Shown: in pieces, positions 14,320 through 54,394 of the stretch
Layout: each line of letters opens with the position of its first letter
Numbering within the stretch: the stretch's first letter is position 1
DNA from: Lachnospiraceae bacterium
GTDB lineage: Bacteria; Bacillota; Clostridia; Lachnospirales; Lachnospiraceae
Assembly (NCBI GenBank): GCA_017476665.1
Contig: JAFUZJ010000019.1
Location: forward strand, 1-64,000
Direction: 5' to 3'
Length of the DNA: 64,000 nt
Position numbers and translations under genes: made by a program
Notes under the pieces: model-generated
Seen by the model: only the letters and a program-made list of their open reading frames with translations
The model's database searches: none
What the model was told of the DNA's origin: nothing

Positions 14320-15975
14320 TCACGGATAATACTCAATCCCGGAAGTCTCCAGTGCATCTGTATCTCTTGCATGACCTGTGGTAAAAGTTTCAATCAGAAT
14401 ATCATCATAGGTGCACAGAAGAAACCGCCTTGATCTCTTATCCTCATCCGCATAGTGAAAAACTTTGTCAGACGAAACACCGTCTAAAAGCTTCTGATAC
14501 ATATCAGGGAAATCTATTTGAGAAATCGGTGCATCGCTGTAGTTCATCTCTTCATGATGCTCATTGAGTCCCTTAATAAACAGCATCGGGTGCTGCCTTC
14601 CATAATATACATCTCCGTCTTCCTCATTATATCCATGGTCCGATGTGATGATCAGAATGGTATTGTCGTATACACCAAGCCTTTTCAGTTCATCAATATA
14701 AGCGCTGATGATCGTATTGCTCGCCCCTACATTTTCGTAATAGGATGTCTCCACACCATACTCATAGGTCAGATCCATGTGATACCAAATTGGCAGATGC
14801 GCACCCTCCAGGTGAATGATCTTAAAACATTTTTGATCTATAAGTTTTTTTGCTACACTTTCGTCAAGCAGATCATGATAAAAATAAAGATTACTGTCAT
14901 AAAACGGTACTTTCGCATATCCGTCCTTATTTTCACCGGTCTGCGCAAATTCCCACGGAAAGATCTGGCTATAGCGTTTTAATATATAGGGCGCATATTT
15001 GAATCCCACAAGCCGCAGCCAAAGCTTACAAAAACCTATGTTGGATTTGATCTTTCCATTTTCCGGCGCCACATTGTCATACAAATTCATATCATAATAG
15101 CGTGCCGGAATTTCATCGGTATAGAGATCCAACTTATAGTCTTCGCTCTTAAGTCTTCTTACAAGCGCATTTTTTGTGAAACTCCTACCTGCGAACTCAT
15201 CATATTCCTCGCTATACTCATACCATTCTCCCGCCAGCATAAAAGGAAGTGCCATCTGCGTATAGGCATAGGAACTCAACACATTGGTGTAGTCAGTAAA
15301 ATCCGACAGATCTTTTTTGAACCGGGGATAATCCTCCAGCACTCTTTCCTCCGTATCGCCATCAACAGCATCCATGACCAAAATAACAAAATTCTGTTCT
15401 TGGGAATACTCCCACAGGTCCTTTAAATTTGTGGATTGGCGAATATGTCTGGAAAACCCGTCATTTTGTATTCCAAGCAACACTGCCGACAACATCAAAA
15501 AAGCAATACTCAGGATTCCAATATAACGCAGGCTTTTACCAAGTACTCTTTTTTTCTGCAGAATGTAAGCTACTGATATTCCTAAGATCAGAGATACGAT
15601 CCATAAAATATTACTCTCCACAATCTGCCTCTGATACAACGACCAGTCAACATATCCCCCTGAAACCATAGGAAGATCTCTGATCATAAAATTTCCCTGA
15701 ATATAAAATGCCGCAAATACTCCCAAAATACCCCCGCATATAATAGCCCTGATCTGCGGAACTTTTGTAAAAACCGTCAGGATCAAAAAGATCAGAATAC
15801 CTCCGGCTATGCAGATCACCGCAAACATACCGAGACATCTGGGAAGCATCGTATAAAAGTCGAACCAATATTCATTTTTGTCCATGAAATACAGGGAAGA
15901 CGGTTCAAAAATAGTCAGCATGAAACATAACGCTGTCCAGACCCATAATATATTCGCGTTATCATTTCTTTTCAT
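14320..15975 (-). CDS. Membrane protein with extracellular sulfatase/phosphotransferase-type domain
   Basis: About 551 residues: five N-terminal membrane helices (about 10-160) and a soluble domain of the alkaline-phosphatase superfamily facing outside. Visible metal-site motifs are VILVMDAVDGD at the start of the domain, a likely Thr/Ser nucleophile in SSYAYTQMALPF, HLEGAHLPIW, and ITSDHGYNEEDG near the end. This is the plan of phosphoethanolamine/phosphoglycerol transferases and sulfatase-like envelope enzymes; the substrate is unknown. The ATG at 15973-15975 lies 12 bases upstream of the glgB stop, so it is coupled to glgB. Pairing with a glycogen enzyme may be accidental. Confidence 0.8.
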   Translation of the reverse strand: MKRNDNANILWVWTALCFMLTIFEPSSLYFMDKNEYWFDFYTMLPRCLGMFAVICIAGGILIFLILTVFTKVPQIRAIICGGILGVFAAFYIQGNFMIRDLPMVSGGYVDWSLYQRQIVESNILWIVSLILGISVAYILQKKRVLGKSLRYIGILSIAFLMLSAVLLGIQNDGFSRHIRQSTNLKDLWEYSQEQNFVILVMDAVDGDTEERVLEDYPRFKKDLSDFTDYTNVLSSYAYTQMALPFMLAGEWYEYSEEYDEFAGRSFTKNALVRRLKSEDYKLDLYTDEIPARYYDMNLYDNVAPENGKIKSNIGFCKLWLRLVGFKYAPYILKRYSQIFPWEFAQTGENKDGYAKVPFYDSNLYFYHDLLDESVAKKLIDQKCFKIIHLEGAHLPIWYHMDLTYEYGVETSYYENVGASNTIISAYIDELKRLGVYDNTILIITSDHGYNEEDGDVYYGRQHPMLFIKGLNEHHEEMNYSDAPISQIDFPDMYQKLLDGVSSDKVFHYADEDKRSRRFLLCTYDDILIETFTTGHARDTDALETSGIEYYP

Positions 15976-18307
15976 CACTTTTTACTGCTGCGCTCTTAGA
16001 GGATTTCGCCTTTGTTTTCTTTAACGGCGTATTCTTGCGGATTCTCTCCTCGATCACTTTCACCAGCTCTTCCTCCGTATAAGGATCAAACCGCAAAATA
16101 CTCAGGGACTGCGGCGCCAGCTTCACGGTGATGGATTGTCTTCTGTCATCCCACTCCGTATCGGTAGCTGCTTTGGTGCGGCTGTTCAGCACACCGCTTC
16201 CGCCGTACTTCTTGTCATCTGTGTTAAAGATCTCCTTATACTTGCCTTCATACGGAACACCCGTGGTGATATCCTGCTCCACACCGGAGAAGTTGGCCAC
16301 GATGATCAGCATGTCCTCCGGATCGTCCGTCTTGCGCACATAGGACAGATAACACTCATTGGCGGAAATATTATTGATCCACTGGAATCCGTCTGCACTG
16401 TCATCCATCTTATATAAAGCAGGCAATGTGCGATAAAGATGGTTCAGATCTCTGACAAGATCAGCCACTCCCGCATGTTCGGGATACTGCAGCAGATCCC
16501 ACTGCGTGATGCGCTTCTCATTCCACTCGTCAAACTCACCGATATCCTGCCCCATAAAGAGCATCTTCTTGCCCGGATGCGTCATCATATAGGCATAAGT
16601 CAGACGCAATGCCGCAAATTTCTGTTCTCTTTCTCCGGGCATCTTGCCGATCATGGAAGACTTTCCGTGTACTACCTCGTCATGAGAGAAGGTCAGTACA
16701 AACTTCTCACTGTAGGCATAGATCATGCTGAAGGTCAGTTCTCCATGATGATGGCTTCTGAAGTAGGGATCATACTTGATATAATCCAGATAATCATTCA
16801 TAAAGCCCATATTCCACTTCAGATCAAAGCCCAGTCCGTCGTCCTCCAGATCTCCCGTCACCTTCGGGAATGCAGTGCTCTCCTCCGCGATCGTCAATAC
16901 ACCCGGATTCCGCTTCTTCATCACGGAATTCAAATGTTTAATCATCTCAATGGCTTCCAGATTCTCCTTGCCGCCATACATATTGGGAATCCATTCACCG
17001 TCTTTTCTGCCATAGTCCAGATACAGCATACTTGCAACCGCATCCATACGGATTCCGTCTGCATGGTATTTTTCCACCCAGAACAATGCATTTGCGATCA
17101 GGTAATTGCTTACCTCAGGACGTCCGTAATTAAAGATCAGAGTACCCCAATCAGGATGCACGCCCTTTCTGGGATCCATATGCTCATAGAGACATGTTCC
17201 GTCAAAATATCCCAATCCCTGTCCGTCCTTCGGGAAATGAGCCGGTACCCAGTCCAGGATCACGCCGATCCCCGCCTTGTGCAGTTCATTCACAAAATAC
17301 ATGAAATCCTGCGGCGTTCCATAACGTGAAGTGGGCGCATAATACCCAACCACCTGATATCCCCAGGATTCATCGTAGGGATGCTCCATCACAGGCATCA
17401 GTTCCACATGGGTATAATTCATCTTTTTCACATATTTGATCACTTCAGGCGCAATCTCGCGATAATTAGCAAAGGTTTCGTTCTTCCCCGGCTTTACAAA
17501 AGAACCCAGATACAATTCAAAAATGCTGATCGGTGCATTCCCGGTCTGAAAACTTTCCCGCTTGGAAATAAAAGCTGCATCCTCCCATTTGAAGCCGCTA
17601 AGATCCGTTACAACGGAAGCCGTATCCGGGCGAAGCTGTGCCGCATTTCCATAGGGATCTGCCTTCAGATAGGTGGTATCACCCTTTAATTTCAGTTCAA
17701 ATTTGTAGTTTTCACCCACTTTGATCCCGGGTACAAACAACTCAAAGATACCGGAATCTTCCAATCTGCGCATTTGATGTGCTCTGCCATCCCATCCGTT
17801 AAAATCTCCCACTACACTGATCCGCATAGCGGAAGGCGCCCAGACTGCAAACAGAACGCCGTCTTCCCCCTCCAGTTTCATGGGATGCGCGCCCAGCTTT
17901 TCATATACGGTATAATGAATTCCGTTGCGGAATTTCTCCATGTCATCCTCGCCGATCACCGGTGCAAAACGATACGGGTCTCCAAACTCCTTTTCGCTGC
18001 CGTCTTCATATTCCACCAGATAGCTGTAAACCGGTAATTTTTTGGCCGGGATCAAAGCCGCAAAATAGCCGTCTTCATCGGCCATTTCCATGGCGTAATC
18101 CTTCTTCCAGAATCCTTCCTGCGTAGCCCCGGTTCCTTCCCCTTTCCAGATGATCGACACATATTTTGCCTCCGGAAAATAAGCCTGCAAAAGAACCTGA
18201 CTGCCGGACTTATGCGGTCCCAAAAGCGCATGGGGATTGTCGCTCTCCGCATAGATAATTTCCTCGATCATAGGCCAGTTCATCAGCTTGTACAATTTCT
18301 TTGTCAT
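15962..18307 (-). CDS. glgB: 1,4-alpha-glucan branching enzyme
   Basis: Makes alpha-1,6 branches in glycogen. The 781 residues contain an N-terminal carbohydrate-binding region (about 10-240), a GH13 barrel and a C-terminal beta domain. Catalytic signatures are intact: DWVPAHF, nucleophile Asp in DGIRMDAVAS, general acid Glu in TIAEES, and FSHDEVVHGK. The protein ends in an unusual Lys/Ser-rich tail of about 30 residues, longer than in E. coli GlgB (728 residues). It follows the DUF1015 gene by 31 bases and overlaps the sulfatase-type gene. No glgA, glgC or glgP is nearby. Confidence 0.95.
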   Translation of the reverse strand: MTKKLYKLMNWPMIEEIIYAESDNPHALLGPHKSGSQVLLQAYFPEAKYVSIIWKGEGTGATQEGFWKKDYAMEMADEDGYFAALIPAKKLPVYSYLVEYEDGSEKEFGDPYRFAPVIGEDDMEKFRNGIHYTVYEKLGAHPMKLEGEDGVLFAVWAPSAMRISVVGDFNGWDGRAHQMRRLEDSGIFELFVPGIKVGENYKFELKLKGDTTYLKADPYGNAAQLRPDTASVVTDLSGFKWEDAAFISKRESFQTGNAPISIFELYLGSFVKPGKNETFANYREIAPEVIKYVKKMNYTHVELMPVMEHPYDESWGYQVVGYYAPTSRYGTPQDFMYFVNELHKAGIGVILDWVPAHFPKDGQGLGYFDGTCLYEHMDPRKGVHPDWGTLIFNYGRPEVSNYLIANALFWVEKYHADGIRMDAVASMLYLDYGRKDGEWIPNMYGGKENLEAIEMIKHLNSVMKKRNPGVLTIAEESTAFPKVTGDLEDDGLGFDLKWNMGFMNDYLDYIKYDPYFRSHHHGELTFSMIYAYSEKFVLTFSHDEVVHGKSSMIGKMPGEREQKFAALRLTYAYMMTHPGKKMLFMGQDIGEFDEWNEKRITQWDLLQYPEHAGVADLVRDLNHLYRTLPALYKMDDSADGFQWINNISANECYLSYVRKTDDPEDMLIIVANFSGVEQDITTGVPYEGKYKEIFNTDDKKYGGSGVLNSRTKAATDTEWDDRRQSITVKLAPQSLSILRFDPYTEEELVKVIEERIRKNTPLKKTKAKSSKSAAVKSDEKK

Positions 18308-29865: not shown

Positions 29866-31020
29866 TCACGACATCTCCATATTTTCCAGCTTTTTCCTCT
29901 TATACCCGGCAAAATCTCCGGCATCCAGCGCATCCCGGATCTCCTCCATCATAGTATTATAAAAATACAGATTATGCATCACGCACAGCCGCAGTCCAAG
30001 CATCTCTTTGGCTTTCAGCAAATGCCGGATATACGCCCTGGAATACCGCCTGCAGGTCGGACAGCCGCAGCCCTCCTCAATCGGTCTCGCATCCAGCTCA
30101 TACTTGGCATTGAACAGATTGATCTTGCCGTGATTCGTGTAAAGATGCCCATGTCTTCCGTTTCGGGTAGGATAAACGCAGTCAAAGAAGTCCACACCGC
30201 GCTCCACCGCCTCCAGGATATTGGCAGGTGTCCCCACGCCCATCAGATAAGTCGGTTTGTCCTTTGGCAGATAAGGCACTGTCACATCCAGGATATGATA
30301 CATTTCCTCATGGCTCTCCCCTACGGCCAGTCCGCCCACGGCATAGCCATCCAGCTCCATCTCCGCAATCCGCTTCGCGTGGTCAATCCGGATATCCTCA
30401 AACACCGCGCCCTGATTGATGCCGAAAAGCAGCTGCTTCGGATTTACAGTGTCCTCCAGCCCATTCAGGCGATTCATCTCGATCCGGCAGCGTTCCAGCC
30501 ATCTTGCGGTGCGCTCCACCGAATTCTGCACATACTTCCGCTCCGCCTTGCTGGGTGCGCACTCATCAAACGCCATGGCAATCGTAGAACCAAGATTCGA
30601 TTGGATCTGCATACTCTCCTCCGGCCCCATGAAGATCTTCCTGCCGTCAATATGGGAGTTAAAATAAACCCCCTCCTCCTTGATCTTGCGCAGTCCCGCC
30701 AGAGAGAACACCTGGAAACCGCCGGAGTCCGTGAGGATCGGCTTGTCCCATGACATGAATTTATGCAATCCACCCAGTTTTTTGATAACCTGATCCCCCG
30801 GTCTCACATGCAGATGATAGGTGTTCGACAGCTCCACCTGGGTCTTCAACTGTTCCAGATCCTCCGTAGACACTGCGCCCTTGATTGCCGCCACAGTGCC
30901 TACGTTCATAAACACCGGTGTCTGGATCACACCATGTACCGTTGTAAACTCTGCACGTTTTGCGTTTCCTTCCGTTTTCAGCAGACGGTACTGCGCCTTC
31001 ATGTTATTGTTATTATTCAT
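29866..31020 (-). CDS. tgt: Queuine tRNA-ribosyltransferase
   Basis: Exchanges guanine-34 for queuosine precursor in tRNAs with GUN anticodons. The 384 residues have the TIM-barrel signature, nucleophile and substrate residues in LTDSGGFQVFSL and YTRNGRHG-like PTRNGRHG, ARWLERC, and the zinc site CGCPTCRRYSRAYIRHL ... MHNLYFY. The frame begins with Met plus five Asn (start 31018-31020), and Met7 at 31000-31002 is the other candidate. The start lies inside the stop of the giant adhesin gene (ATGAATAA), and no clear ribosome site is visible, which points to translational coupling. Confidence 0.95.
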   Translation of the reverse strand: MNNNNNMKAQYRLLKTEGNAKRAEFTTVHGVIQTPVFMNVGTVAAIKGAVSTEDLEQLKTQVELSNTYHLHVRPGDQVIKKLGGLHKFMSWDKPILTDSGGFQVFSLAGLRKIKEEGVYFNSHIDGRKIFMGPEESMQIQSNLGSTIAMAFDECAPSKAERKYVQNSVERTARWLERCRIEMNRLNGLEDTVNPKQLLFGINQGAVFEDIRIDHAKRIAEMELDGYAVGGLAVGESHEEMYHILDVTVPYLPKDKPTYLMGVGTPANILEAVERGVDFFDCVYPTRNGRHGHLYTNHGKINLFNAKYELDARPIEEGCGCPTCRRYSRAYIRHLLKAKEMLGLRLCVMHNLYFYNTMMEEIRDALDAGDFAGYKRKKLENMEMS

Positions 31021-34000
31021 ATTTCTTTTCTTCTTTTTTCTTCAGGAAAAGAATTGTGAGGGATATCGCCAGCCATCCGAACACCAGGCTACCGCCGAAC
31101 ACTTCACCCACCCTGCTGTCAGCCGTCTTAGGCGCTCTGGGCACGTCAGGCGAACTCGTAGAATGCGTCCCGGAGGTGCTGCCATCCTCCTCGTCTTCCT
31201 CCTCTTCCTCCTCATCAATCATTTTCAACCGAATTATATTCTGCTCTTCTTCACAGGAACCCGCCTGTTCGGAAACATTAAATGAAATCTTCTTTGCAAT
31301 TTCGTATCCTGATGGTGCTTTGTCCTCAACGAGATAATAAGTCTTGCCGCTGATAAGCTTTCCTTCCATCCTATGAACACTTCCGTCGGAAGTCCAGCTA
31401 TCCATCACATTGCCGTCCTGGTCCTCTATATGGAGCGTCGCTCCCGAGAGCGCCTTGTCTCTCTCATCAACCTTTGAAACCTCAACAATGACAACCGGCT
31501 CAAGCCATGTAATATTGCCATTTTTATCCATTGTGATCGTGCCTTCGCCATCATTCACAAGAACTGCCTTCACGGTTCCGACATCATTTACCGAAAGCCT
31601 CATAAGCATTGGGTGTTTGGATACATAGAATCCATCCGGCGCTTCAAGCTCTTTCACCATATAATCCACACCGGTGATAACGCCCGCAAACTTCACCTTG
31701 CCCTGGGCATTGGTTGTCGCAGTCGCCAACAACACATAATCCTCGCCGTCTATCGCAACAATCTCCGCTTCCTCCGCAAGACTTCCGCTGACTCCTTCCG
31801 CCGTATTGATGCTTGCAGTCACACCGGTCAGTTCAAAGCTTCCTCTTCTCGCATAACTGCCCAGTCTTCGGAACAATCCATAGGTAGAACCTGCAAGCGA
31901 CTCTTCCGGATTGGATTCATTTACCTTGGTAAACTCGATATTCCCACGATATACATCATCCGTAACTTCAAAGACTGCGGTTCCGTCGCCCGGCGTTTCC
32001 ATAAGCCCCGTGTACCCGTCATTGGTCACAGTCACATACATAGCCTTATCAAGCTTCCTATAGTTATCATGCCCCGAGCTAACCTCTTTTACAACATAAG
32101 TCCCCGGCGCAATCCCCGTAAATTCCACCCGTCCATCCGGCTCGCGGCTTGTCGCTGTTGCAATTATATCATCCGGATTGTCCATGCTTGCAATACTGAA
32201 CGTTACGCCCGAAATCGGTTCCACCTCATCCGCGTTGGATGCGGGCTCCGCAAGCTGCTCATTGAAACGTCCGTATTTCGTAAAATATACCGTCCGCTTC
32301 TTCCCGTTCTCCACCAGATAAATCGTACGTCCCTCATCGTCTGTCGTAGTTTTCAGCCCAACCTCTACGGTACCGTCTTCCATTATCTTAATTTCAATAT
32401 CGGTTGTGATCCTCGCATAGTCATCCGGCGCAACTGTCTCTCTGAGAATATAAGTCTTGCCGCTCTCTAATTTTTCGCCGAAATCATGTGACTTGATCTT
32501 TCCATTTTCACCCTTCTCAGATACCCAACTGTCAATGGCCTTCTCTTTGCCCTCCGAATCCTTGACAATGATGTAATCGCCGTTTTCATCCTTCCTGGCA
32601 TCTCCGTTCTCGTCGGTCTCTACCTCATAAACCTTGAGTTCAGCGCCTTCCACCTCCTCGCCGTTTCCGGCATCCACTTTATTCACATTGAAAGAGATTG
32701 CAGTATCCTCCACGAGATAAACCGTCTTGCCGTCGCTCGTTACGGGCCTAAGCTGTTCGCTTGTCTTCACCTCAATGGTTCCATCCGTCTTCACCTCAAA
32801 CTGCATGTCAGTGGTCACTCTGCCGTATCCCACGGGTGCAACGGTCTCCCTGAGGACATATTCATGCCCGGCTGTCAGCTTCTTACCAAAGTCGTAAGTC
32901 TTTTTCTCGCCATTCTCACCCTTTTGGGAAGTCCAGCTGTCAATGACCTTATCATTACCGTTTGCATCTTTCACAAGGACATAGCTGCCATCCGAATCCG
33001 TCACCAGATTTCCTTCGGAATCTTTCTCAATCTCATAGAGAACGAGCTCGGCACCCTCTACCTCTTCTCCGCCTCCTAACTCAACTTTGTTGACACGGAA
33101 AGACAAAGCAGTATCCTCCACAAGCAGAACCTTTGTCGTCTCTCCGCCGGTTGTGACATCCTTTGTAGAAGTTGTTGTATTGTCTGTGTCTATTGTCCCG
33201 TCTTTTTTCAGTGTAAATTTCGTATCCGTAGTGATGGCATATCCCTCGGGCGCTACGGTTTCCCGCAGAATATAGGTCACCTCCGTGGTAAGCCCCTCCA
33301 CGGTCTTGCCCTTCTTATCGTCGGTGACAGTGGAATCCCACTCCTCCACCACGTCCTCTGTATCTTCAATACCGTCATCATCCGTATCAATCAAACGGAT
33401 GATCTGAATATGCGCTCCGGCAAGCTCCTCGCCGGTTCCCAGATCAACCTTACTGATATTTACCCTGGTCTTGGCATCCTCCACCAGTAGCACCTTGTTA
33501 TTATTTGCATCCGTCCTGGTATGCATGGAAGATGTCACCGTACCATCCGTTTCAATGGTAAAGGTGGTGTCCGTCGTAATCGCATACCCGTCCGGCGCAA
33601 CGGTTTCACGCAGCGTATATTCCACACCGGTTTTCAAGCCCTCAATCACCTTATCTGTTCCGGCCTGAGAATCCCACTCAATTACCGCTTCCCCATTTTC
33701 ATCCAGGATCTGAATATGAGCCCCGGTGAGCTCCGCACCATCTGCAATATCTACCTTGCTGACCCTCACCACGGTCTTGTCATTTGACACTTCCTTTGTA
33801 GTGTTGCCTGCTAACTTCACGGAATATATCAAGGGTGTTACAAACACTCCGTCCACAGGCTCTGTGGATTCCGTTCCCGCCTCCACGCTGACGGTAACGG
33901 TATATTCCGCATTGTCATCCAGCACATATCCTTCCGGCGCCTTCGTCTCCTTCAAAAACAGTTCTGTCGTGCTTCCCACCACAGGAAGATATGTCTCCAG

Positions 34001-37000
34001 TGCAGCCTCGCCTGCTGAAATCTCAATCTCTCCGTTAGCGTTGGTTGTATAATCCCTGATCTTTGTGGTCTTGTCCGCCTTGTATAGTGTAAACACTGCG
34101 CCTTCAAGCTTCTTCGTGCTGCCACTGTCAGGGGTGTAGATCTTCGTAACCGTAAGACCTTCATAGCTATAGGTATTCCCCTTCTTTCTGGCATCCTGAA
34201 TCAGAATGATTTCCTCACCGTCTATGGACCTCGTCACGCCTGCCGTCACATCAAGAGTGCCATCTTCCTTGATGATAAATTTGGTATCCGATACCGCAAG
34301 ATCGTACCCGTCCGGTGCAACGGTCTCACGCAGCGTATACTCTACGCCGGTTTCAAGTCCCTCTACGGTCTTACCTTTTCCGTCTGTGGTGACAACGGAA
34401 TCCCATTCCGTTACCACCTCCTCCACTTCCGTGTCGGCAATACCATCATTATCCGTATCCTTCATGACCTTACGGATCACCTGGATATGTGCATCTTTCA
34501 CCTCTTTTTCATTGGTCGCGTCTACCTTGCTGACCTTCACAGATGTCTTTTGATTTGTGATATCCTTTGTGGAAACACTGGTTGTTCCCTCCTTCAACTT
34601 GACAGAATACGTGATTGGCGTCTCAAAATATCCCTCAACCGGAGCAGATGACTCGCTGCCTTTTTCAACGCTTATCTCTACCTCGTAAGGAGCTGAAGCA
34701 GTATCCAAAACATATCCATCCGGAGCCTTTGTCTCCTTCAGATAAAGTGTAGTGGTACTTCCGATTGCCGGAAGATAAGCAGACTTAATTTCATTTTCAC
34801 CTGCGGAAATCTCTACTACACCATTTGAGTCAGTAGTATATGTCTTCACCGCTGTACTCAGAGCTGCATTCGCATATAGGGTAAATTCCGCCCCTTTCAG
34901 TTTCTTCGTATCATCATTTTTATCTGTCTTGGTGATGGTCAGTCCGTTATAATACTCTCTATCCCTCCTGTTTTTGGTATTCTCTGCCAGAATGACGATT
35001 TTGCCGCCCTCTGCCGTCTGTTCGGCCGCAGTCTCAACCGTACCATTTGCCTTGATCTCAAATATGATATCATCAGTCAATACTTTGTATCCGGTCGGCG
35101 GTGTTACTTCATGAATACGGTATTTCACACCGGTTTTAAGACCTTCTATGGTCTTGACCGCTGAATCTGAAGATGTCCACTCAATACGATTACCATTTTC
35201 ATCCAATACAACACTCTTGTCCTCATACAAGAGCCGAAGCGTTGCGCCCGCAAGCTTTGAAGGAATAGCTCCATCTGTCACGTCCACCTTGCTGATATTC
35301 ACCTTGGTCCTGGTATTTTCAACAGGCAGATTATCTGAACCGTTTAAGAAAACGCTATATGTATTCGTTGCTTCGTATTTTGTATGTTCAGTATTCCACC
35401 CACCTGTTGTCTTGGATATAATCTCAAATTTATAAATAGTAGAATCCAGTATACATCCATCAGGTGCCGTTGTCTCTTTGAGATAATATCTTACATTACC
35501 GTCATCCACCGGAAGATATGCTGCCAAATCGGCATCTGCAGCACTTATGATAAGATTACCATCTGTATCCGTGGCCGCAAATGATTTAATGGTCTTTGTG
35601 CAGTCACTGTCGGCATATAAAGTAAACACAGCACCGCTTCTGGGATTCCCACTATCATCTGTCTTATGGAGTCTTGCGTCAATATAAAATTTTGTAATCT
35701 CCTCTATCCTTTCATTCCCAACAGCCATAGTCCCGCCATCCAAATAAACGGTTGGGTCATTGCCGGCATTATCTGACGAAATCGTAAAAGAATGAGGCGT
35801 GGGATCCAAAATATAACCTGTGGGAGCCTCTGTTTCAACAAGATAATATTCCTTATTTTTCTTTAATACGTAGCCATCCGTATTCTCCAGTAAAATAATC
35901 TGAACATTGCCATCCGCATTCGATGTAAATTCTTTTGAATGGATTGTTTCATTTTCATCTGTTTCATCTGTCCAGTACAGCTTAAATTTTGCATTAGGTA
36001 TTCCTACAGAAACATCAGCTATATCATGCTTATAGAGTGTGATAGCCAAATTTGACGCAGAACCCGATCCACTTGTCTCTCTTGTTACAGTCTTCTCTGC
36101 CGTAGCCGTATATCCCATTAAAGAAGCAGTATTTGACACAGTTACTGCTTCTCCCTCAACATTAACCAGACCGGTATATGTAATCGTCACCGCCCTGGAA
36201 TCAGGCACTATATAGGTAATGGTATTGCCCGAAATGCTGTAATTGATCTCGACATTATTGCCGTCTGCATCAGCGGCTGTAATGGAATTAATATTTAAAA
36301 TAAAATTATCAGTAAATGTATCCGTTACAGTTAACGTATCCCCGGACGACAGATTCTTTTCACTGGGATTTATGCTAATTGTGAATTCTATTTCACCGGA
36401 CCTTAAAGAATTCTTGTCAGTTTTACTCTTTGCCGTTTTGGACAAAGCGTCAAACTGAATATCAACGGTTGCGCTGTCACTTTTATCCCCATAAACAGCG
36501 GTGTTGGTGATATGAACCGCAGAATCAAAAGATGCACTGTCCTCGTAAGCTTGTTCTTCATCTACCTTTAACCAATAGGTCAATGAATAATACTGTCCTA
36601 CACTTTCATAGTCCTCTTTCGAATAATAGCCGCCTTCGGACCTGACAGGCACATCCGACTTCGCTATATGAAAGTTAACGCTCGAACCTGTATCTGATAC
36701 AACAGGGGTAATATCAGCCGAAAATGTAGTCCACTCATCCCTCGCAACGAATACAGGAGTTAAATCATAATCAGCCGCATAACCACTTGCTTTTAGATAA
36801 TCGGCATAACTGGAATAAAAGTTTTTTGCCCACGATTCCCATGCTGATTGAGCTTTCGCCTCGTCATAAGAATCTGAGAATCCTACAATCGTATAATTCT
36901 CAGGAAAACTTTGATAGGCCGAATAAGTATCTGTAATATCAATATCACCCGCGATCCCGAAAACTTTTAATTCATACCCGTAATAGATATCGCCGTCCGT

Positions 37001-38962
37001 CGATTCTATGCGCTTTTTATAGTTCTTTTCAAGATCGACATTTACATATGGCGTAACAGAAGCCGTATCCTCTTTAGGACTTTTATCAATACCCGCGTCA
37101 AACGTTACTGTATTTGTGTGGCTGTGGGAAGAAGGCCAGTCGCTATTATTGTTCGTTGTAACCACTATTACAACCTGTCTGTCTTCATCCGAGGGGGCAA
37201 AGCCCGATTTGGTATCACCGTTGCTGTCTGTATAAGAAAATTCAAATTGAAAACCAGATACAGCGCTCGCCATGGTACTCCAGTCAATAATAGAAGTAAT
37301 CACATCATAATCATAAGTTTCCCCTGAAAGCAATCCGGATACAACCGGTGTCGAATCAAGTGCATCATAAGCATTTACTAAACCCGCACTAAAAGAAGGC
37401 AGGGTATCCTTTACTATGCCTTTGGGAAGACCTGCTGCAGGGATATCCAACGTGATCGTCCATGTGATGGTGTCGTCCGTCTCGCCAAGCGCGGCTTTAT
37501 CCGCAGTCTTTGTAACATTATATTCAGGATTTACGCCGATTCCCGTAATTGTAGCAGTATCGGATTCCCCCGAAGTCTGATCATCGAACTGGTTTGACAC
37601 ATCGAATTTACCGGATTGTCCTGTCGTATTGATCTTCGTACTATATCTGATTGTTGCGGTCAATTTCCCATCGTCATAACCCTCAGCTAAATAATCCGGC
37701 AAAGTATACGACCATGAAGTCGAATCAGCGGAAACGCCCAGCTCCTCCCATGACACGGATAGACTCCCCTCCGGTATCACACTCGTGCCATCAGCAGTTT
37801 TGATTTCTATGGTGATACCGTCACCGGTATATTTTTGATTCTGGGCATTGGTTTTCAAGGTATCAACTACAGTATGACTATAGACTGCGCCCTTTAAGGT
37901 AACGGTATAATCCGCAGTCATCGTCTCTTTGTTAAAAGAAGATGATTTATCCACAAAGGTTTTCTTTATCTTCCCTGTAAAACTATAACCATCCGAATCT
38001 GATATACCAAGATCGGTATTCGTCACAATTGCGGTATTTCGGGTCTCGCTATCATCCCCATTGCCATTTACCTGATTGACATCAAACGCCGCTTTATATG
38101 TTATCGTGTATGTTCCTTGCGGTAACTTATCAAAATGAACCGTAAAACCACCGTCTTCATAATTGATAGACTGTCCCTCTAAATTTATCGCATTTTGGGC
38201 TTCATCAAACACTTCCACGCTCCCGTCAACAAGCGACAGCGCTGTTCCGCCGAGACCGTCATATATCTCTACATTATTTTGGGTGCCATATGTAGTAACT
38301 GTCAAGTGATACTTGATTACATCCGGCAGATATTTACTGTCGTCTTCGTCGAATGCTATGTAGGATGCTATATATTGGGAATCCCAAGACATTATGTCCT
38401 TGGCTATTGCAAGCTTCGGCGTGTCTTCTACTAATGTAGTAACCTCATCATTCCATTGAATTTCACTCACATCTGAATTAATATGCGCCCGTAAATCCAA
38501 CTGGATCTTCGCATCATCTGCGCCGGCAAGATGTGTATAATTCTCATGACCCGTGTTCAGTTGAAGCGTAATTGTATCATTGGTTACGGTATACTCGTTT
38601 TCGGAAACCGTATATGTAATCCCTCCGACAGACACATTTATATCGGTTTTACCATTAAAAGTTTCACCTGTAATTTCCATCGGTAATTGCATGGTGAGCG
38701 TATCATCAAACTGGTAAGAATTATTTTCCTTCAAAAAGATAGAAAATTGATAATCTGTTCCTGCGTAAACGCCCAATCCTCCGCTGTCAACTTCAACGTC
38801 CGTAATGAACTTTTTCATATCATCTGTCACTTCGCCCGCTGCCAAAACCCTCCGCAAGGAGCTTGTACCATCCATGCCGACACTTCCAAGTATCATCACC
38901 ACTGCCATCAGAAACGCCAATAATCTTCTTTTTGTCCCTTTTCCACTCACCACGTTTTTCAT
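31013..38962 (-). CDS. Giant Cna-B-repeat cell-wall adhesin
   Basis: About 2650 residues. A signal peptide (RRLLAFLMAVVMILGSVG, ending near VLAAG) is followed by ~950 residues of isopeptide/adhesion-type beta domains, then 13 Cna-B-type domains, an acidic Ser/Thr-rich linker, and a C-terminal wall signal. The sorting motif reads APKTAD rather than LPXTG, followed by a hydrophobic helix and KKKEEKKYE. Cna-B domains show the isopeptide pattern: Lys in VSKVD, Glu in LRETVAPDGY. Two contain DTDNDG/DTDDDG Ca-loop-like inserts. The start is taken at ATG 38960-38962; a TTG at 39028 with a strong AGGAG is a serious alternative that adds 22 residues. No sortase gene is in the window. Likely an adhesin or pilus-like surface stalk. 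Confidence 0.93.
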   Translation of the reverse strand: MKNVVSGKGTKRRLLAFLMAVVMILGSVGMDGTSSLRRVLAAGEVTDDMKKFITDVEVDSGGLGVYAGTDYQFSIFLKENNSYQFDDTLTMQLPMEITGETFNGKTDINVSVGGITYTVSENEYTVTNDTITLQLNTGHENYTHLAGADDAKIQLDLRAHINSDVSEIQWNDEVTTLVEDTPKLAIAKDIMSWDSQYIASYIAFDEDDSKYLPDVIKYHLTVTTYGTQNNVEIYDGLGGTALSLVDGSVEVFDEAQNAINLEGQSINYEDGGFTVHFDKLPQGTYTITYKAAFDVNQVNGNGDDSETRNTAIVTNTDLGISDSDGYSFTGKIKKTFVDKSSSFNKETMTADYTVTLKGAVYSHTVVDTLKTNAQNQKYTGDGITIEIKTADGTSVIPEGSLSVSWEELGVSADSTSWSYTLPDYLAEGYDDGKLTATIRYSTKINTTGQSGKFDVSNQFDDQTSGESDTATITGIGVNPEYNVTKTADKAALGETDDTITWTITLDIPAAGLPKGIVKDTLPSFSAGLVNAYDALDSTPVVSGLLSGETYDYDVITSIIDWSTMASAVSGFQFEFSYTDSNGDTKSGFAPSDEDRQVVIVVTTNNNSDWPSSHSHTNTVTFDAGIDKSPKEDTASVTPYVNVDLEKNYKKRIESTDGDIYYGYELKVFGIAGDIDITDTYSAYQSFPENYTIVGFSDSYDEAKAQSAWESWAKNFYSSYADYLKASGYAADYDLTPVFVARDEWTTFSADITPVVSDTGSSVNFHIAKSDVPVRSEGGYYSKEDYESVGQYYSLTYWLKVDEEQAYEDSASFDSAVHITNTAVYGDKSDSATVDIQFDALSKTAKSKTDKNSLRSGEIEFTISINPSEKNLSSGDTLTVTDTFTDNFILNINSITAADADGNNVEINYSISGNTITYIVPDSRAVTITYTGLVNVEGEAVTVSNTASLMGYTATAEKTVTRETSGSGSASNLAITLYKHDIADVSVGIPNAKFKLYWTDETDENETIHSKEFTSNADGNVQIILLENTDGYVLKKNKEYYLVETEAPTGYILDPTPHSFTISSDNAGNDPTVYLDGGTMAVGNERIEEITKFYIDARLHKTDDSGNPRSGAVFTLYADSDCTKTIKSFAATDTDGNLIISAADADLAAYLPVDDGNVRYYLKETTAPDGCILDSTIYKFEIISKTTGGWNTEHTKYEATNTYSVFLNGSDNLPVENTRTKVNISKVDVTDGAIPSKLAGATLRLLYEDKSVVLDENGNRIEWTSSDSAVKTIEGLKTGVKYRIHEVTPPTGYKVLTDDIIFEIKANGTVETAAEQTAEGGKIVILAENTKNRRDREYYNGLTITKTDKNDDTKKLKGAEFTLYANAALSTAVKTYTTDSNGVVEISAGENEIKSAYLPAIGSTTTLYLKETKAPDGYVLDTASAPYEVEISVEKGSESSAPVEGYFETPITYSVKLKEGTTSVSTKDITNQKTSVKVSKVDATNEKEVKDAHIQVIRKVMKDTDNDGIADTEVEEVVTEWDSVVTTDGKGKTVEGLETGVEYTLRETVAPDGYDLAVSDTKFIIKEDGTLDVTAGVTRSIDGEEIILIQDARKKGNTYSYEGLTVTKIYTPDSGSTKKLEGAVFTLYKADKTTKIRDYTTNANGEIEISAGEAALETYLPVVGSTTELFLKETKAPEGYVLDDNAEYTVTVSVEAGTESTEPVDGVFVTPLIYSVKLAGNTTKEVSNDKTVVRVSKVDIADGAELTGAHIQILDENGEAVIEWDSQAGTDKVIEGLKTGVEYTLRETVAPDGYAITTDTTFTIETDGTVTSSMHTRTDANNNKVLLVEDAKTRVNISKVDLGTGEELAGAHIQIIRLIDTDDDGIEDTEDVVEEWDSTVTDDKKGKTVEGLTTEVTYILRETVAPEGYAITTDTKFTLKKDGTIDTDNTTTSTKDVTTGGETTKVLLVEDTALSFRVNKVELGGGEEVEGAELVLYEIEKDSEGNLVTDSDGSYVLVKDANGNDKVIDSWTSQKGENGEKKTYDFGKKLTAGHEYVLRETVAPVGYGRVTTDMQFEVKTDGTIEVKTSEQLRPVTSDGKTVYLVEDTAISFNVNKVDAGNGEEVEGAELKVYEVETDENGDARKDENGDYIIVKDSEGKEKAIDSWVSEKGENGKIKSHDFGEKLESGKTYILRETVAPDDYARITTDIEIKIMEDGTVEVGLKTTTDDEGRTIYLVENGKKRTVYFTKYGRFNEQLAEPASNADEVEPISGVTFSIASMDNPDDIIATATSREPDGRVEFTGIAPGTYVVKEVSSGHDNYRKLDKAMYVTVTNDGYTGLMETPGDGTAVFEVTDDVYRGNIEFTKVNESNPEESLAGSTYGLFRRLGSYARRGSFELTGVTASINTAEGVSGSLAEEAEIVAIDGEDYVLLATATTNAQGKVKFAGVITGVDYMVKELEAPDGFYVSKHPMLMRLSVNDVGTVKAVLVNDGEGTITMDKNGNITWLEPVVIVEVSKVDERDKALSGATLHIEDQDGNVMDSWTSDGSVHRMEGKLISGKTYYLVEDKAPSGYEIAKKISFNVSEQAGSCEEEQNIIRLKMIDEEEEEEDEEDGSTSGTHSTSSPDVPRAPKTADSRVGEVFGGSLVFGWLAISLTILFLKKKEEKKYE
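31300..36055 (-). repeat. Thirteen tandem Cna-B domain repeats in the adhesin gene
   Basis: Each domain opens with a Lys-bearing strand. From N to C these lie at about 36040, 35680, 35300, 34935, 34540, 34150, 33765, 33460, 33095, 32690, 32285, 31930 and 31480. Two kinds alternate in the middle part: one with YLP..GSTT.LYLKETKAPDGYVLD, the other with EWDS...TVEGLxTGVEYxLRETVAPDGY. Two neighbours near 32.65-33.1 kb share long EVEGAEL..SxKGENG stretches. Unit length is ~105-140 codons, in frame throughout. Confidence 0.85.
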
Positions 38963-39076
38963 GCTAATCCCAGATTCCTTTCCTGAATTTTTGCGTCCAT
39001 TTACCAAAATGACCATAGAAAACAGCAACGTAATCTCCTACATCACATCATTAAATTTTTATAAAATACCAAATTA

Positions 39077-51795: not shown

Positions 51796-52407
51796 TTACT
51801 GTATGATATTCTGTTTTCTCCCGTTGTTGCCTGTCTTTGCCGACTTTGTTTTTCGGGAATTCCCTTTGCGGACCAAATTCTTCCGGATACTCCGAAAAGT
51901 CCTCTCTTCCCCGTACTCGGCCAGCATTTTCAGATACTTTTCCAAAACCTTCGCCGTATATTCATGCATAACGTGCGCGTTTTTCCCTTTCAGGAAATAA
52001 GCATAGGCATCCTTGTCCGTGTACTCTTTTCCTTTATACACTTTACATGCCGCAATACGGTCCATGATCATCTCTGCAATATATCGATCCGGCATCGGCA
52101 CCGGCACCATCTCCCCGGGTCTCGCCTTCTTATTGTAGTCGATCCAGTATTCATAATGGTGCTTATTGCGCCCCTTATGGTGCAGCCACGCGGAGGAATA
52201 GCCGATTGCCTCCCGCTCCGCGTCATTTGGACTGCGATTTCCCTGGTAATAATGCACTCCAACCAGAAATTCCGCCGGACTGTACTTGGACAGATCATGC
52301 AGCAGTCCCTGTCTGTACAGACCCACCCGGAAGCATCCCTGCGCCACCAGATACTTGTGATATGTGATTGTCTTAAAATGCTTCCTTGCAGCCTGTAATT
52401 TATGCAT
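51796..52407 (-). CDS. DUF5662 protein
   Basis: A 203-residue soluble basic protein. Conserved-looking features are HKYLVAQGCFRVGLYRQGLLHDLSKYSPAEF near the N-terminus, with His-Asp as in HD-type metal sites (LLHDLSKYS), and later AWLHHKGRNKHHYEYW, rich in His. A metal-dependent role is possible but not shown. The start is placed at ATG 52405-52407, preceded by AGGGGTG, and overlaps the stop of the GlgX-like gene by 8 bases, so the two are coupled. The last ~30 residues are Lys/Arg-rich. Confidence 0.82.
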   Translation of the reverse strand: MHKLQAARKHFKTITYHKYLVAQGCFRVGLYRQGLLHDLSKYSPAEFLVGVHYYQGNRSPNDAEREAIGYSSAWLHHKGRNKHHYEYWIDYNKKARPGEMVPVPMPDRYIAEMIMDRIAACKVYKGKEYTDKDAYAYFLKGKNAHVMHEYTAKVLEKYLKMLAEYGEERTFRSIRKNLVRKGNSRKTKSAKTGNNGRKQNIIQ

Positions 52408-54361
52408 TTTGCACCCCTGGATCCCGTTTTTTACGCTTCTTTTTGTCCGGCGCAACCGGTACACCCACATAGATCATGCAGCTGCGCGGCGGAACCTGGA
52501 TCTTGCTCTCCTTGATCTCATCGGTGGTTTTTTCATGATCCGCCGACGCCGTTCCCCCAGAAAACTCCTCGATTCCGGTCGCAGGCGGCATTTCCTCCGT
52601 GGACAGCACCAGCTTCCACTTCATGCCCGCTGGCAGCTTCGGCATGGCAAGATTTCTCTTTTCCCAATACATATTTAATGCAAAGTAAAGAAATGCATCC
52701 TCCTCACCTTTGGTATTCTTTGCATATTTTCCGCAATATAGGATCCCGATATGCCGGTTGTAGCTCTCCGTGCGGGGACGCCATGCATTTTCACCGTGAT
52801 AGGACAGATCCGGATAACCGCAGGACAGATAGTCCATGATGCGGTTTTCTTTAGCCGGCCGCAAAACGGCGTGCTCCCTGCGCAGTTCCACCATCTTCTT
52901 CCAGAAAGCATAAATACATTCGTTCTTTTTCAGATCATTCCAATCCAGCCATGTCACATTGTTATCCTGACAATAGGGATTGTTATTCCCCCTCTGGGAA
53001 TTGCCGAACTCATCACCCATGAAGATCAAAGGGGTGGACTGGGACATCAGAAGCATGGTCATGGCGTTCCGGATCTGTTTGTTGCGGAGCGCCTGCACTT
53101 TCTTGCGCTTGCTGGGTCCCTCTTCCCCACAGTTCCAGCTGCCGTTAAAGTCATTGCCGTCCCGGTTGTCCTCACCGTTCGCCTCATTGTGCTTCCGCTC
53201 ATAGCAGACCATATCTTTCAGCGTCAGGCCAAAATAATTGCTCATATAATGGATTCTGCCCATTTTCGGCGGAATCTTACGCATCTGGGTGAGTACTGTC
53301 TCCAGCATGTTTTCGTCACCCTTAAGGTATTTCCGCATGGAATAAATATATTCATCACTGTAAGCGGCCAGATTCCGGTACTCCGGCATCTCATCCCGCT
53401 CATAAAGCTTGTCTGTGTCAAAATAATAATACCACAGCTTCGTCTCCGCCAGCATCGGCTCCGATGCGATCACATCCGCCGGAATATCCGGTCCCATGAG
53501 ATGAAATCCGTCCACTCGGTACTCCAAAACCCAGTAGCGAAGCACATAAATGATCTCCAGCGCCGTAAAGCCCTTGGGAAAATAGAGCTGCATCACAACT
53601 TCCATGCCCCTCTGATGAAAAGCATGTACCATCTCCTTAAACTCCCTGCAGGCATCATCTCCCGCGGCATAGGAAGCCTTGGGAGCATAATAATACCCCT
53701 GTTTATACCCCCAATAATTGATCTTTTTCGGCACCAGCCTGTCCAGATCCGCAGCCCCCGGCATATGCGTTGCATCGCGCATACCGAGCTGTGCACGACG
53801 TTCTTCCTCAGTGGGAATCTCCGTAAATTCATAGACCGGCTGCAGTTCCACCGTCGTAATCCCTGTCTGCTTCAGATAATCCAGCTTCTCCACCAGTCCC
53901 GCAAAGGTTCCCCTGTGCGCCACGCCGGATGAGGAATGCTTTGTGAAACCTCTTACATGCGCGCAATAGCAAATGCAATCTTCGTAGGGAATACGGGGCC
54001 TTACATCATCCTGCCAGTCAAACTCTGATTCCGGAATGACGGCCTTTAAGTCATGGAGCTTGCGTTCTTTTCCGTAAGGGTGCTTTTGATCGAACATTCT
54101 GGCATTCGGATCCGGCACAATACAGTTCTCCTCATAAAACTGATAGGAAATCCTGCACGCAGGAAGATCCCTGAAATATTTGCAATGTATATTACCCACC
54201 CTCTCCTTTGCAGTAAAGGGCAGCTTATATAATCTTTTCCCGCTTGTCCTGTCATAAATCAACACACCGCAATCGCTTTTTTTGGAAATGAATGAAAAAC
54301 GGATCGCACCGTCCTCCACGTATGCGCCTAACGGGTATGGTTTAATGTAGTTTGAAAACAT
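52400..54361 (-). CDS. GlgX-like GH13 protein with lost catalytic residues
   Basis: About 653 residues with the plan of isoamylase/glycogen-debranching GlgX: N-terminal CBM48-like region (about 10-110), a GH13 barrel (130-520) and a C-terminal beta domain. The scaffold is close to GlgX (KHNEANGEDNRDG, WGYKQGYYYAPKASY, TPLIFMGDEFG), but the four catalytic boxes are changed. DVVxNH reads MQLYFP, VDGFRFD reads VDGFHLM, LIAEPWD-type reads LWYYYFD, and VTAHDG reads MSNYFG. Nucleophile, general acid and stabiliser are all missing. It is probably a glycan-binding or regulatory pseudoenzyme. The start is ATG 54359-54361 after AGGTGG. Confidence 0.88.
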   Translation of the reverse strand: MFSNYIKPYPLGAYVEDGAIRFSFISKKSDCGVLIYDRTSGKRLYKLPFTAKERVGNIHCKYFRDLPACRISYQFYEENCIVPDPNARMFDQKHPYGKERKLHDLKAVIPESEFDWQDDVRPRIPYEDCICYCAHVRGFTKHSSSGVAHRGTFAGLVEKLDYLKQTGITTVELQPVYEFTEIPTEEERRAQLGMRDATHMPGAADLDRLVPKKINYWGYKQGYYYAPKASYAAGDDACREFKEMVHAFHQRGMEVVMQLYFPKGFTALEIIYVLRYWVLEYRVDGFHLMGPDIPADVIASEPMLAETKLWYYYFDTDKLYERDEMPEYRNLAAYSDEYIYSMRKYLKGDENMLETVLTQMRKIPPKMGRIHYMSNYFGLTLKDMVCYERKHNEANGEDNRDGNDFNGSWNCGEEGPSKRKKVQALRNKQIRNAMTMLLMSQSTPLIFMGDEFGNSQRGNNNPYCQDNNVTWLDWNDLKKNECIYAFWKKMVELRREHAVLRPAKENRIMDYLSCGYPDLSYHGENAWRPRTESYNRHIGILYCGKYAKNTKGEEDAFLYFALNMYWEKRNLAMPKLPAGMKWKLVLSTEEMPPATGIEEFSGGTASADHEKTTDEIKESKIQVPPRSCMIYVGVPVAPDKKKRKKRDPGVQNA

Positions 54362-54394
54362 TTTTCTCACCACCTAACAACAAAAGATATTTTT

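Follow-up and report, generated by a model that had tools for sequence, protein, structure and literature searches.

A GlgX/isoamylase homologue without the GH13 nucleophile is widely retained in Lachnospiraceae

The first 64,000 nucleotides of contig JAFUZJ010000019.1 from a Lachnospiraceae bacterium (the whole stretch of DNA analysed, termed the window) encode a protein that resembles the glycogen debranching enzyme GlgX and in which the catalytic positions are occupied by other residues. The question raised by this locus is what a debranching-enzyme homologue without a cutting site might do for its host. The gene (pseudo-GlgX; Table 1) is an intact frame of 653 codons on the minus strand, as the initial annotation had it; an alternative GTG start at 54373 falls within the Shine–Dalgarno-like sequence that precedes the ATG. 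The same annotation had credited the gene with its own promoter, which was not borne out by a scan of 3.5 kb, where three promoter-like sites were found versus 5.2 expected in shuffled sequences. A separate promoter is plausible given the divergent neighbour. The window also holds an open reading frame of 2671 residues on the minus strand (31013–39028).

Homology to GlgX and isoamylase, also proposed at the outset, is far above chance in both NCBIfam and PDB matches. The NCBIfam model for GlgX, TIGR02100, matched pseudo-GlgX with an E value of 6.5e-86 and 288.9 bits, which is less than half of its curated cut-off (640.9 bits), and matched 30/30 members of a diverse clade alignment at E ≤ 1e-10. 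The PDB matches were to isoamylase 1 chains, with E values down to 1.7e-68, and to GlgX (7e-59). The nearest named relatives belong to Lachnospiraceae and include Acetatifactor metagenome-assembled genomes and UBA3821 (94% identical). Pseudo-GlgX has in common with bacterial GlgX (TIGR02100) the order of its segments and the border lobe KHNEANGEDNRDG..SWNCGEEG..GDE..GNNN.YCQDN; with homology across most of its length and this border-lobe motif, it belongs by descent to the GlgX/isoamylase lineage, which is numbered GH13_11 in the available text of PMC6243121 and PMC12516185. It differs from GlgX in the missing catalytic triad, in the deletion of about 44 and 14 residues, in a score below half of the cut-off and in having no recognised CBM48.

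The catalytic positions were read from an alignment of 96 distinct clade sequences (pseudo-GlgX and its relatives, gathered mostly by similarity to it, so that nucleophile-bearing intermediates of other groups could be missed) with 30 GlgX proteins above the TIGR02100 cut-off. The groups were defined by retrieval route and not by catalytic residues. Pseudo-GlgX retains no GH13 catalytic residue in this alignment, the nucleophile, the acid Glu and the stabilising Asp being replaced by Met289, Tyr312 and Phe377, respectively. All four GH13 regions had been described as altered; every one of these losses holds against the 30 GlgX proteins, and only the register of region IV was one residue off, the aligned motifs placing the substitutions at Tyr376 and Phe377 rather than at Asn375 and Tyr376. 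A screen of homologues for the same losses, as had been suggested, was unequivocal for the nucleophile Asp, which is present in 30/30 active GlgX and in 0/96 clade proteins. The acid Glu is retained in 16/96 clade proteins and the stabilising Asp in a different 16/96, and no clade protein has two of the three catalytic residues. The Asp, Asn and His of region I are kept in eight, one and one of the 96, respectively, the Arg of region II in nine and the His of region IV in 28. These scattered counts indicate that single catalytic residues survive in distant members and not in pseudo-GlgX. Among L025, L027, L039, L022, L028 and others, some retain the region IV Asp and others the acid Glu alone, none retaining both; it is possible that members of these kinds are intermediates of catalytic decay. 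Judged from the sequence, it is close to certain that GH13 catalysis has been lost in pseudo-GlgX, and the protein very probably descends from GlgX/isoamylase without having kept hydrolytic activity.

For the spacing between the catalytic regions and for the site conservation described below the alignment was enlarged to 148 rows (104 clade and 44 active proteins) and the groups were split by the nucleophile column, which agrees with the retrieval group in 148/148 rows. Two inter-region deletions, overlooked in the initial annotation, are present in 104/104 clade proteins and in 0/44 active proteins. The spacing between the region I Asp and the nucleophile is 75 residues in 44/44 active proteins and 30–31 in 104/104 clade proteins; the 75-residue spacing typical of GlgX is thus absent from pseudo-GlgX (Table 1). 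The distance between nucleophile and acid Glu is 37 residues in active proteins versus 22–24 in the clade, with about 14 residues missing. The stretches of active proteins that fall within the first deletion include NHTAEGNE and YYNFSGCGNTLNCN-like sequence.

Table 1. Positions of the features discussed in the text (numbering of the window).
Feature	Position	Strand	Remarks
GlgB, catalytic motifs intact	15962..18307	-	34 kb from pseudo-GlgX
DUF5662 gene, overlaps 3' end of pseudo-GlgX	51796..52470	-	PF18907, E 4e-37
Pseudo-GlgX, open reading frame P0001, 653 aa	52400..54361	-	ATG 54361, stop 52400-52402
C-terminal motif D510...G515-P-D-x-S-Y-H...W527...R536...Y546	52724..52834	-	D510 and D518 clade-typical
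Conserved β7–β8 border-lobe segment (residues 383-475) with N392, W409, N459	52937..53215	-	30/41 active-invariant sites kept
Region IV, MSNYFG (residues 373-378)	53228..53245	-	His to Y376, stabilising Asp to F377
Arg343 of the border lobe, matching R504 of maize ISA1	53333..53335	-	102/104
Region III, LWYYYFD (residues 309-315)	53417..53437	-	Acid/base Glu to Y312
Region II, VDGFHLM (residues 283-289)	53495..53515	-	Arg to H287, nucleophile Asp to M289
Shortened region I–II stretch	53495..53572	-	31 residues from Q258 to M289 versus 75; about 44 missing
Region I remnant, MQLYFPK (residues 257-263)	53573..53593	-	D/N/H to Q258/P262/K263
Shine–Dalgarno-like AGGTGGTGAG, 5' of pseudo-GlgX ATG	54366..54375	-	Read from sequence

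Trees were calculated by quick searches from 48 clade and 15 active rows and from 36 clade and 24 active rows. After removal of the eight catalytic columns, both trees separate the clade from the active proteins at a single branch (SH-aLRT 100). In the second tree two long branches were flagged, L194 and L195 (equal to L180 and L186) were omitted from the eight out-of-family proteins, and the out-of-family active rows do not group as an outgroup, so that the clade may have originated either within or next to the active GlgX of the family. On the first tree a single change accounts for the nucleophile, versus at least seven for the acid Glu and at least four for the stabilising Asp, a pattern to be expected from early loss of the nucleophile followed by drift of the rest. 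A clade profile was searched against 391 genomes of the class Clostridia and matched 22 of them at E ≤ 1e-60. The 14 matches in Lachnospiraceae are near-full-length (566–918 bits); the eight outside the family are partial or split (at most 407 bits), and the proteins of all eight carry the catalytic D, E and D. At this threshold the clade was seen only in Lachnospiraceae among the 391 genomes, one divergent member being shown. Within the family, 143 of 200 sampled genomes match at E ≤ 1e-130. Across this large group of gut bacteria, many members retain a debranching-enzyme homologue that lacks a cutting site. No paper on such a bacterial clade was found in full-text searches whose results were judged mostly by title and opening lines of the abstract, with most subscription papers outside their coverage.

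Retention was scored by counting a site that is invariant in active GlgX as kept if it is retained in at least 90% of the clade proteins. In residues 383–475 the sites kept are 30/41 versus 39/132 elsewhere (p = 1e-6, the borders of this segment having been chosen after the conservation was seen); the corresponding counts are 9/9 in the C-terminal domain, 19/34 in the first barrel strands and 4/34 in regions I–III. Conservation of residues 501–550 is higher in the clade than among active GlgX proteins, and the clade-typical Asp510 and Asp518 are found in 100 and 99 of the 104 clade proteins, respectively. Arg343, Asn392, Trp409 and Asn459, conserved in 102, 104, 101 and 104 of the 104 proteins, align with the same residues of an isoamylase 1 chain (R493, N550, W567 and N617 of 9j60_A). 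The positions in 9j60_A equal those of maize R504, N561, W578 and N628 minus a constant 11, and the maize numbers were reached through this chain. According to the accessible portion of PMC12510319, these four residues of maize ISA1 sit in the border lobe and W578 touches glucan at the surface site SBS2. The equivalents are just as conserved in active GlgX (42–44 of 44), so that their retention may reflect folding and not glucan binding. Binding of α-glucan by pseudo-GlgX appears likely from the retained residues. The N-terminal Pfam domain CBM_48 was recognised in 5/30 clade members and not in pseudo-GlgX, and two isoamylase C-domain models each matched 12/30 members.

We propose that pseudo-GlgX may be a non-catalytic α-glucan-binding organiser of glycogen, analogous to plant ISA2 in kind, different from it in the glucan site and independent of GlgX; to this reading, which draws on sequence comparison and analogy, we give roughly an even chance. 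The clade descends from a GlgX-like (GH13_11) protein in which the nucleophile and the I–II and II–III inter-region segments disappeared, a loss that the alignment shows, with a single change on the tree. With these parts lost, hydrolysis of α-1,6 linkages by the GH13 mechanism should not occur. As the conservation shows, selection has since maintained the β7–β8 border lobe and become stricter in a part of the C-terminal domain. Outer α-glucan chains may still be gripped by the border lobe at the surface site known from plant ISA1 as SBS2. The protein may sit on glycogen as a non-catalytic organiser or a docking platform for chain-building or chain-trimming enzymes (GlgA, GlgB or GlgP), a role that would proceed without an active GlgX partner. 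The initial annotation had suggested a glycan sensor, a scaffold or an allosteric partner; of these, a glycan-binding or scaffold role is reasonable in view of the conserved equivalent of a glucan-binding lobe.

The likeness to plant ISA2, which is the non-catalytic partner of ISA1 (available text of PMC12892837 and PMC12510319), is that in both cases an organism that stores glucan conserves an isoamylase paralogue devoid of catalytic residues. The glucan sites differ: ISA2 is without the SBS2 sequence and keeps SBS1 (PMC12510319, in the part at hand), whereas the clade keeps the equivalent of the SBS2 Trp, Trp409, in 101/104 proteins; a search aimed at placing SBS1 gave no match to an isoamylase. 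The same source describes the retention of catalytically dead ISA2 in plants as not understood. As the clade often occurs without an active partner, a non-catalytic function could be tested in it without the enzyme. It is possible, although we hold the idea only tentatively, that a non-catalytic isoamylase arose in Lachnospiraceae independently of its plant counterpart and shapes or organises the storage polysaccharide alone, retaining the SBS2 that ISA2 lost, in cells without an active isoamylase; if so, a noncatalytic isoamylase function would be no peculiarity of plants or of starch.

The gene neighbourhood bears on an unlikely alternative, a glycan or metabolite sensor. Pseudo-GlgX would then act by way of partner proteins such as the DUF5662 product, its barrel binding a ligand instead of serving as a platform on glycogen. 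Of 89 flanked regions, among which at least two genomes are represented twice (L043/L147 and L045/L146), 39 have a DUF5662 gene downstream of pseudo-GlgX and in the same orientation; its start is at −190 to +56 bases relative to the pseudo-GlgX stop in 34 of the 39. The conservation of residues 501–550 beyond that in GlgX would also be expected of an interaction surface. Against this, no member of the DUF5662 cluster was found alongside in 50/89 regions, no paper naming DUF5662 was found in a literature search and nothing links the pair to a signal. Other recurring genes nearby fall in an ABC ATPase cluster (52 regions) or encode a UvrD-like helicase (32), a lactonase (30), a GltX-like synthetase (29), a TrpS-like synthetase (27) or DUF1292 (26); DUF5662, UvrD, lactonase and DUF1292 were named by Pfam on the window genes, and the ABC, GltX and TrpS labels were read from the sequences. 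A glycogen operon was not seen in the 89 regions apart from three single cases, with GlgB in one, phosphorylase in one and active GlgX in one. In the last of these (L127, 7881–13851) the genes for active GlgX, an ABC ATPase and pseudo-GlgX stand in this order on a single strand, no more than about 100 bases apart, a row that could preserve an original duplication.

This row would also suit a subunit of the ISA2 type that binds active GlgX to increase its activity or change its specificity, as plant ISA2 does for ISA1 (PMC12892837, in the portion available); such a role for pseudo-GlgX is distinctly improbable. Genomes were tallied with active GlgX taken as a best TIGR02100 E value below 1e-100, which includes two fragmentary cases (G042 and G048). 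Among 200 Lachnospiraceae genomes, 98 have the pseudoenzyme without GlgX, 45 have both, 12 have GlgX only and 45 have neither. The 45 genomes with both would allow for a subunit, and ISA2 acts with ISA1; however, 98/143 carriers show no GlgX, so that a GlgX partner cannot be general, and the association is not significant (odds ratio 1.7, p = 0.17). GlgX is adjacent in 1/89 flanked regions, and no match to TIGR02100 above 57 bits was found in the genome of the window beyond pseudo-GlgX itself. On these figures an obligate GlgX partner has no support, and the allosteric partnership with GlgX put forward in the initial annotation does not hold as a general rule. An obligate type I pullulanase partner was likewise without support (p = 0.72). 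GlgA is near-universal (385/397 genomes), and co-occurrence of the pseudoenzyme with glycogen synthesis therefore has no power. Of the 45 genomes with neither GlgX nor pseudoenzyme, 41 have GlgA, which indicates that the pseudoenzyme is dispensable to the pathway.

No GlgX or type I pullulanase was seen in 71/143 carriers, the genome of the window included, and GlgA is present in 70 of the 71. The genome of the window (G000, 97% complete) has GlgA, two phosphorylases, a second GlgB-like protein with motifs also intact and two GlgD above the cut-off, each adjoining a below-cut-off relative that was taken for GlgC. These glycogen genes are spread over contigs C23, C6, C41, C44 and C37 in addition to the GlgB of the window. 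Neither a type I pullulanase at E ≤ 1e-80 nor a GDE_C protein was found in this genome, although absences here and in the genome counts could stem from gaps in assembly. A protein that had acquired new catalytic residues of a non-GH13 kind, with a new debranching or other activity, would account for glycogen-making genomes without GlgX and PulA, including one also without GDE_C, and Glu397, Asp510 and Asp518 are conserved acidic residues of the clade that active GlgX does not share. We nevertheless regard this as quite improbable: 13 of the 16 acidic residues conserved at ≥90% are common to active GlgX and so unlikely to be new, the segments adjoining the active site are deleted, the presence of the pseudoenzyme does not follow the absence of GlgX or PulA (p = 0.21), and further GH13 proteins in the genome of the window could debranch.

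A decaying pseudogene or an assembly artefact is very improbable. Some observations point that way, namely the free drift of the catalytic columns, an internal stop reported in 35/143 family matches and faster divergence: in 13 genomes carrying both proteins (five of them of one genus, g207) the mean identity is 43% for the clade protein and 63% for GlgX, and the clade protein diverges more in 78/78 pairs, by 1.86 times in distance. However, the dN/dS of pseudo-GlgX versus its nearest relative L040 is 0.053, which in effect rules out the pseudogene reading and bears out independently the earlier claim that selection keeps the gene; five other pairs gave 0.058–0.147 and three further pairs were saturated. 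In the 13 of the 35 matches that were examined each stop lies within four codons of one or other end of the match, and 103/104 aligned clade proteins have residues at all eight marker columns, which span residues 56–626. The clade protein is constrained, at different places from GlgX. An active enzyme in a shifted register, the refutation named in the initial annotation, can be dismissed, since the flanking motifs align unambiguously, the segments between them are gone in 104/104 clade proteins and no other register can supply them, no point in its favour having been found.

A protein of this type is easily mistaken for a working enzyme, and carriers may be scored as glycogen debranchers. In Butyrivibrio hungatei MB2003, glgX2 (bhn_I1315; 648 aa, no CBM48) is listed as a glycogen debranching enzyme, next to a glgX1 of 726 aa that has CBM48 (PMC5716241, in the part of the source available); judged by its length and the absence of CBM48, this glgX2 is probably a member of the clade.
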